A stretch of 51,402 nucleotides of DNA from the NCBI GenBank assembly GCA_900315205.1, contig OMYF01000013.1:1-51402 (forward strand). Direction: 5' to 3'. Positions within the stretch are counted from its first letter, which is position 1, and every line of letters begins with the position of its first letter. This DNA is from an uncultured Acidaminococcus sp. (GTDB lineage Bacteria; Bacillota; Negativicutes; Acidaminococcales; Acidaminococcaceae). A program made the translations under genes and the position numbers. This document shows positions 3,475 to 51,402 of this stretch, in pieces. The notes beneath the pieces are model-generated. The model had not been told where the DNA came from and made no database searches. It was given only the letters and a program-made list of their open reading frames with translations.

Positions 3475-3501
3475 TTTATAGATGTACGAAATGGTCCAGG
3501 A

Positions 3502-50668: not shown

Positions 50669-50790
50669 GCGCCAGCAGACAGCCGCGGGTGGCGGGCCGC
50701 GGATGGCAGCCATCAGCTCTCAGCAGCCAGCAGGCAGCCGCGGATCGCGGGTGGCGGTTCGCGGGGCGCGAGGTTGCGGGCTGCAGCTTT
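50669..50790. repeat. GC-rich degenerate repeat, copy 2
   Basis: Words CAGCAG, GCGGATCGCGGGTGGCGG and TTCGCGGGGCGCG recur, with the same style as 105-232 and 51238-51391 but a different order. The block lies in otherwise AT-rich sequence. Frames open across it are low-complexity. Confidence 0.7.
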
Positions 50791-50947: not shown

Positions 50948-50978
50948 AAAAAAAATCTCCCGACAAATATGTCGAGAG
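50948..50978 (-). terminator. Intrinsic terminator of the putative structured RNA
   Basis: On the minus strand CTCTCGACA, loop TATT, TGTCGGGAG (one G-U), A, then eight T. No protein gene ends nearby; it closes the unit described at 50990-51093. Confidence 0.85.
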
Positions 50979-50989
50979 TCTTCAAAAAT

Positions 50990-51078
50990 AAAAAAGATAA
51001 CCCCAGGCACATAGGAATGCTCGGCCTTACGGCTTACCCCATTCTGGGACCCAGCGATTATCCTTCACGAGTTATCTT
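50990..51078 (-). ncRNA. Putative orphan structured RNA (sRNA or riboswitch aptamer)
   Basis: A promoter-type -10 with extended TG (51085-51093) is followed at once by a closed RNA: AAAAGATAAC (5') pairs with GTTATCTTTT (3'). Inside are TCCCA/TGGGG, GAATG/CATTC and an apical GCC-GTAA-GGC tetraloop hairpin, plus unpaired purine-rich strands. A second, strong terminator follows. This is the layout of an aptamer plus expression platform or a free-standing sRNA. It does not match the signatures of SRP RNA, 6S RNA, tmRNA, or TPP, FMN or SAM riboswitches that I can recall. Confidence 0.6.
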
Positions 51079-51084
51079 TTTTGT

Positions 51085-51093
51085 ATTGTATCA
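51085..51093 (-). promoter_or_regulatory. Extended -10 element of the structured RNA
   Basis: Minus strand TGATACAAT, with no clear -35. It lies three bases from the base of the hairpin, so transcription would start within the first base-paired nucleotides. Confidence 0.6.
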
Positions 51094-51237
51094 TATCCGT
51101 TTTAAATTATTAATATCAAAATCCACTGTTACAAGCCAGGCAAAAATATCCCATCGCGATCCGCTGTGCCGACAGGGACAATGGAACAACCATCACGAGT
51201 GGGGCTGTTATAAATTGTGAGACGCAAGTCGCGGATT

Positions 51238-51391
51238 GTGGCCAGCCGTTCTCAGCCGTCAGCAGCGGTCTGCGATTTGCGGCCTGCGGCCTGCGATATA
51301 CAGGCTTTGGTGCTGCGGATGGCGGTCAGCCGTCAGCAGCCAGCAGCAATCTGCGATCTGCGATTTGCGGCCATGGTGCAGCGGAAGCAGG
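51238..51391. repeat. GC-rich degenerate repeat, copies 3 and 4
   Basis: GTGGCCAGC, GCGATTTGCGGCCTGCGG, TGCGATATACAGGCTTTGGTGCTG (51238-51315) match copy 1 in order. A second unit (about 51327-51391) repeats CAGCCGTCAGCAGCCAGCAG and TGCGATCTGCGATTTGCGGCC. They run towards the window edge, so the array may continue. Confidence 0.75.
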
Positions 51392-51402
51392 GATCCTCTT
51401 TC

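Follow-up and report, generated by a model that had tools for sequence, protein, structure and literature searches.

How does a compact RNA with its own promoter and terminator come to stand in a bacterial genome with no protein gene attached to it? We asked this of a stretch of 51,402 nucleotides from an uncultured Acidaminococcus sp. (contig OMYF01000013.1; hereafter the window), where an extended -10 element, a structured RNA and an intrinsic terminator follow one another on the minus strand near the end. A preliminary description of the locus had offered two readings, a small RNA or a riboswitch whose regulated gene has been lost, and had matched the RNA to no known class.

The window RNA, its fold and its relatives

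The elements of the locus, in window coordinates, are the following.

51085-51113, minus strand: sigma-70-like promoter with an extended -10 (TG-A-TACAAT) and a weak -35 (TTAATA); TTGATA/TATGAT is an overlapping alternative
51085-51090, minus strand: extended -10 TGATACAAT, hexamer TACAAT
50991-51079, minus strand: structured RNA of 89 nt, full length to model R1
51069-51078, minus strand: closing helix P1, 5' strand, pairing with 50994-51003
50994-51003, minus strand: P1, 3' strand, followed by a U run
51059-51066, minus strand: conserved internal-loop motif GAAGGAUA (GAUGGAUA in some relatives)
51050-51056, minus strand: core helix P2, 5' strand CGC-U-GGG, pairing with 51008-51015
51008-51015, minus strand: P2, 3' strand CCU-AU-GUG
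51038-51048, minus strand: hairpin P3, CCCA-GAA-UGGG (main type UCCC-GAAU-GGGA)
51024-51033, minus strand: hairpin P4, GCC-GUAA-GGC, variable in length and sequence
50949-50978, minus strand: intrinsic terminator of the RNA (hairpin 50957-50978, T tract 50949-50956), inside the DUF3644 relic; a homologous hairpin lies in the 3' coding end of DUF3644 genes
50950-50991, plus strand: relic of a DUF3644 C-terminus, KKSPDKYVESLQK and stop, convergent with the RNA; position, strand and frame match relatives

In a covariance model search, R1 matches the window RNA at 79.9 bits (E 6e-20) over model positions 1-89 of 89, a score to which the window sequence contributes as part of the R1 seed; the RNA of satellite phage Javan9, its closest relative, lies outside the seed and reaches a similar score (78.9 bits). 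By this measure the window RNA is intact. Its single-sequence fold is within chance (z -1.35; 21 of 200 shuffles fold equally well), and the case for a structured RNA therefore rests on comparison. No Rfam 15 family matches it at gathering score, the AbiF RNA (RF03085) included, and relaxed thresholds gave only chance matches such as MIR530, in keeping with the preliminary description, which had matched the RNA to no known class.

The preliminary description had looked to conservation and covariation in relatives to decide whether the stems are real, and there compensatory change goes far beyond chance. In an alignment of 60 distinct RNA copies (A2), which supports P1 (10 bp), P2 (6 bp and a small internal loop), P3 and P4, 94.9% of cells are paired and two-sided changes occur at 14 of 27 pairs. 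The covariation score is 0.361 against 0.179 for shuffled alignments, none of 500 shuffles equals it, and it is at most 0.123 when slid. The closing stem proposed earlier is P1, in which 7 of 10 pairs show two-sided compensatory changes; the proposed TCCCA/TGGGG stem is present as the CCCA/TGGG of P3, and GCC-GTAA-GGC is P4, all five pairs of which covary (in Javan9 it reads GCC-UUCG-GGC). The extended -10 and the terminator hairpin with its T tract are likewise where the description placed them. The proposed GAATG/CATTC stem did not survive: it is 76% paired with essentially no covariation, and it competes with P2, which is the real helix. In a 12-sequence test, P2 paired in 12 of 12 at all six positions, with compensatory changes at three of the six pairs; in the divergent satellite RNAs of L172 and L174 two P2 pairs have changed (C-G to U-A and G-C to U-A) and still pair. 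An H-type pseudoknot, GAAGGA/UCCUUU, was also rejected, since its pairing is disrupted in four loci (L079, L112, L172, L174) and that of the nested P2 holds throughout. Together these comparisons support an architecture of a closing helix, an internal loop carrying GAAGGAUA, which is probably single-stranded, and a three-way-junction core. The window RNA belongs to a subtype with one U-A pair fewer in P3 on both sides, a C-G first pair in P2 and CCUAUGUGCC in place of CCUUUGCCCC; the same subtype occurs in L057, L062, L068, L107, L116, L128, L129, L146, Javan9 and others, and subtype tracks the clade of the DUF3644 protein.

The RNA is conserved elsewhere, in about 210 homologues (212 pattern matches in all, of which at least one, L131 from Geobacter, is false). 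Their hosts include Bacillota, Actinomycetota, spirochaetes, phages, phage satellites and plasmids. By DNA search, 61 related genomes yielded one copy from the same genus (G004, L002; 78% identity) and one from a different family within the class (G043, L003). The window RNA, used as query, matches 51 phage records, the best being Streptococcus satellite phages at 91% identity, among them Javan9 of S. agalactiae A909. Phage and plasmid collections hold copies in phages or satellites of Staphylococcus, Listeria, Corynebacterium, Flavonifractor and Streptococcus, and pattern scans of viral and genome contigs extend the range to Lachnospiraceae and other Clostridia, Bacilli, Negativicutes, Corynebacterium, Treponema, Desulfovibrio and others. 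One possibility, that the window unit is a single-locus artefact, a chance run of promoter, hairpins and terminator in an AT-rich spacer, would agree with the unremarkable single-sequence fold; about 210 homologues with covariation refute it.

A convergent DUF3644 gene and its loss

The usual neighbour of the RNA is a convergent gene of about 320-350 codons whose stop codon lies at the RNA's 3' end. It encodes Pfam DUF3644 (PF12358) with a C-terminal EC042_2821 REase-like domain, and it corresponds to PADLOC PDC-S19 (E about 1e-144), listed there as a single-gene phage-defence candidate. DUF3644/EC042_2821 was counted as a HEPN family in a 2013 survey (PMC3710099). An Rx4H motif occurs in 40 of 40 diverse DUF3644 proteins, nearly all of which have it as RNxxTH, and R96 and H101 are invariant in protein alignment A3. 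For an AlphaFold2 model (pLDDT 80), fold searches of the PDB rank HEPN toxins first (best 7bxo and 8xdj, E about 0.06-0.1, probability 0.97-0.99), with modest E values of 0.06-0.3 over the top matches. With both a HEPN fold and an Rx4-6H motif, the partner is predicted to be a HEPN RNase acting in phage defence.

The association shows from both sides, and from the protein side it is strict. Of the 212 pattern matches, 142 have DUF3644 as the convergent neighbour at the RNA's 3' end. When viral contigs were searched with the protein alignment alone, yielding 79 newly numbered loci, 78 had the RNA (R1) convergent at the gene's 3' end regardless of replicon, and at the sole exception, L220, the contig ends at 3499, just beyond the end of the protein match at 3493. 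Of 300 Negativicutes genomes, 16 carry the RNA and 16 carry DUF3644; eight carry both, and in all eight the two are adjacent and convergent. Seven of the eight genomes with DUF3644 and no RNA carry a distant subfamily, about 24-33% identical, at whose loci no RNA was found even at E 10. The eighth has only a 66-residue fragment of the linked type (L293:1468-1665, 75% identical to L076), a relic of the reverse kind in a genome without the RNA. No intact gene of the linked subfamily was seen without the RNA in the 79 viral loci or the 300 Negativicutes genomes. The RNA is therefore tied to one DUF3644 subfamily, and it can exist without the gene; RNA without gene is common, an asymmetry like that of toxin-antitoxin pairs.

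The intact module consists of a promoter, an RNA of about 90 nt, an RNA terminator and a convergent DUF3644 gene with an N-terminal HEPN RNase domain. In 55 of 63 DUF3644-linked RNAs a -10 box matching at least five of six positions precedes GAAGGATA by about 24 nt, and a terminator-like hairpin falls within the 3' end of DUF3644 at 28 of 63 intact loci against 7.5 expected from shuffles. Modules are common on Streptococcus satellites and likewise on Staphylococcus, Listeria and gut phages. They mostly adjoin the integrase of prophages and phage satellites, and the RNA often stands between integrase and repressor.

At the window locus the convergent gene is reduced to its C-terminal relic, and no DUF3644 (PF12358) gene was found in the window genome, which is about 90% complete. 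The relic's tblastn match alone is weak (E 0.01); the homology is convincing because of its position and because the DNA alignment extends beyond the RNA. For comparison, the protein ends in EKDPQHFVESLKKSK and stop in Javan9 and in KKNPDGFVESLRKRKR in L057. The window's terminator hairpin sits inside this relic, so that what had been described simply as an intrinsic terminator is the surviving 3' tail of a DUF3644 gene. Three Streptococcus loci (L129, L163, L170) have likewise lost the gene and kept its last codons and the terminator. Loss of DUF3644 with retention of the RNA thus looks recurrent, and we infer that the retained piece is what the RNA needs for termination.

These observations settle the choice first posed. 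The window RNA is an orphan small RNA whose partner gene lay on the opposite strand. The small-RNA reading stands, and the riboswitch reading was rejected: the downstream partner is antisense to the RNA, and no conserved sense-strand gene follows it in the linked loci compared. A gene has indeed been lost; it was a partner rather than a regulated sense gene, DUF3644 being convergent in over 140 loci. The suggestion that the GC-rich repeat at 50669-50790 took the place of the missing gene found no support, as the genome contains 49 matches to the related repeat at 51222-51402. Both belong to a GC-rich dispersed repeat (CGCAGATCGCAG.., GGCTGCTGACGGCTG..) that probably breaks the assembly, since many of the matches lie near contig ends.

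Solo copies and the function of the RNA

About a third of the RNA matches have no DUF3644 gene at the RNA's 3' end. DUF3644 matches at solo loci that came from protein L139 were discarded because its reading frame enters the RNA itself. Solo copies stand beside tRNAs in phage or phage-like contigs (L056, L084, L165), and in the 112-kb Eggerthella phage LE2-3 one lies about 0.5 kb after a tRNA cluster. Before near-identical copies were collapsed, tRNA adjacency seemed to distinguish solo from linked copies (7/64 vs 1/142, p 0.001); once they were collapsed, the difference was no longer significant (3/35 vs 1/39, p 0.34). The phage copies of L330, L352 and LE2-3 have only the core, with P2 lengthened.

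Other structured RNAs are found nearby. One strand of a phage-like contig (L165:3600-4560) carries in a row the RNA, a tRNA-Arg, several unassigned structured-looking stretches, an abiF RNA (RF03085, 4234-4270) and a tRNA-Tyr; no second abiF RNA was found in that 3.1-Mb genome. On the minus strand of a phage contig (L063:1077-1808) a DUF3800-VII RNA (RF02967) lies about 550 nt upstream, and just downstream is a tRNA-Leu-like sequence with no ARAGORN call. At L160:998-1204 (minus) a DUF3800-XI RNA (RF02975) stands in tandem 70 nt upstream, and a broken remnant of DUF3644 C-terminal codons follows the RNA. A DUF3800-I RNA was also near one of 13 linked loci examined as a control (L088), so such co-clustering is not confined to solo copies.

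Other protein genes appear as neighbours as well. In Weissella confusa (L142:5896-7035, L145:7376-7921) an Abi_2/AbiD gene replaces DUF3644 in the slot convergent with the RNA, and an Abi_2-like gene lies near the RNA in L390. In Staphylococcus phages (L089:2417-3670, L178:2500-3771) a PGA_cap (CapA-like) gene is convergent with it, the copy concerned in L089 being a second one beside a DUF3644-linked copy. A solo RNA of Anaerovibrio (L043:3805-5364; also L124) has as neighbours a serine recombinase and PDC-S25, a defence candidate with a SIR2 domain, and a DUF3800 gene occupies the slot in L114 and L140. A Lachnospiraceae contig (L123:801-1941) has three RNA copies spaced about 526 nt apart inside larger direct repeats, and L114, L157 and L164 share an identical ATTGGGGTTCGTAATTG directly after P1.

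Taken together, the conserved fold, the linkage and the comparison with AbiF suggest that the window holds the orphan RNA half of an RNA-protein module and that the RNA is probably an antidote to the DUF3644 HEPN nuclease. In such a model, the RNA would bind and silence the nuclease, as the AbiF RNA does AbiF. An infecting phage would disturb the supply of the RNA or its binding, and the nuclease, once free, would abort growth of the cell or the phage cycle. Since the transcripts of DUF3644 and of the RNA meet in a tail-to-tail overlap, each might damp the other. After gene loss, as in the window, the RNA keeps its promoter, fold and terminator and would protect the cell when a satellite or phage bearing the nuclease enters. 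Solo copies would fit a role as decoy or immunity RNAs, those in phage genomes perhaps serving as decoys against the nuclease. Going further, phages and bacteria may carry RNA-only anti-defence arrays, clusters of orphan RNAs that sometimes lie among tRNA genes and of which each would be the cognate antidote or decoy of a different abortive-infection protein (DUF3644, AbiF, DUF3800), with the window RNA as a chromosomal member; this is a tentative idea about which we have more doubt than confidence.

Several points weigh against an antidote. The convergent order is unlike that of type III pairs and rules out the same kind of dosage control through co-transcription, and some solo copies adjoin Abi_2, SIR2, DUF3800 or PGA_cap genes, which makes a looser link to defence hot spots possible. 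The main rival is that the RNA could act as a cofactor or sensor and not as an inhibitor: an obligate guide-, tracr- or trigger-like partner without which the nuclease would be inactive and whose alteration by a phage would make it fire. The presence of the RNA at 78 of 79 loci, the constant core fold and the conserved, probably single-stranded GAAGGAUA loop agree with this reading, and Cas13, another HEPN effector, requires RNA. We nevertheless consider it unlikely, since orphan RNAs persist without the protein, which a pure cofactor fails to explain unless they titrate it, and since no segment varies like a spacer apart from P4, which varies as a hairpin.

Improbable in our judgement is a type I-like role, in which the RNA would mainly regulate the convergent DUF3644 mRNA, by antisense action or by transcription interference. 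The tail-to-tail overlap and the excess of terminators inside the DUF3644 3' coding end (28 of 63 loci vs 7.5) speak for it; however, the bulk of the RNA lies outside the gene, its fold is conserved with compensatory changes, and it persists without the gene and in unrelated contexts. We give very little credence to the idea that the RNA serves a cargo site near the integrase, as a regulatory or structural element, and that DUF3644 is merely the commonest cargo there. Its frequent place between integrase and repressor would suit such an element, as would the occupation of the same slot by Abi_2 (L142/L145), PGA_cap (L089/L178), SIR2 (L043) and DUF3800 (L114/L140), but the protein-first search recovered the RNA at nearly every DUF3644 locus whatever the replicon, distant DUF3644 subfamilies lack it, and it also occurs in a phage region without a nearby integrase (L175).

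Comparison with known RNA-protein systems

The antidote reading draws on systems in which a structured RNA restrains a toxic protein. In a C. difficile prophage, the RNA of the RCd22-AbiFCd pair neutralises the AbiF toxin in cis and in trans (PMC12373285). Like AbiF and its RNA, the window family joins a prophage-borne HEPN-type Abi protein to an adjacent structured non-coding RNA of about 100 nt with its own promoter and terminator. It differs in that the RNA has no RF03085 match and forms one three-way-junction unit instead of two short motifs, that the protein has DUF3644 and REase-like domains and not Abi_2, and that the RNA is convergent, whereas the AbiF RNA is upstream and co-transcribed. 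With type III toxin-antitoxin systems (ToxIN and relatives) it shares a predicted endoribonuclease and a small structured RNA, and a phage RNA decoy of ToxIN-type RNA is known (PMC3475682). Unlike type III, however, the RNA is not upstream of or co-transcribed with the toxin, its partner being convergent in all linked loci listed; there are no tandem repeats but one RNA unit per locus, with rare exceptions such as the three copies in L123; and the toxin fold is HEPN, not that of ToxN. The DUF3800-associated RNAs (Rfam DUF3800-I to -XI) are likewise structured RNAs beside a DUF protein, and they adjoin the window-family RNA in L063, L160 and L088, but they differ in sequence and fold, and no DUF3800 model matches it.

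PDC-S19 is the same protein family, catalogued as a single gene, and in the sources searched its RNA component is undescribed: in the open-access literature DUF3644 came up only in the 2013 HEPN survey and PDC-S19 not at all, subscription papers and most preprints lying outside the search. PDC-S19 thus appears to be a two-part RNA-protein system whose RNA was missed because it is non-coding and convergent. The module also makes it possible to test concretely whether RNA antidotes carried by phages serve as counter-defence. AbiF has been proposed as the ancestor of Cas13. As an RNA-HEPN pair with a new RNA, a new protein partner and a convergent order, the window family gives the known HEPN-RNA pairs an independent relative that differs in RNA, topology and protein.
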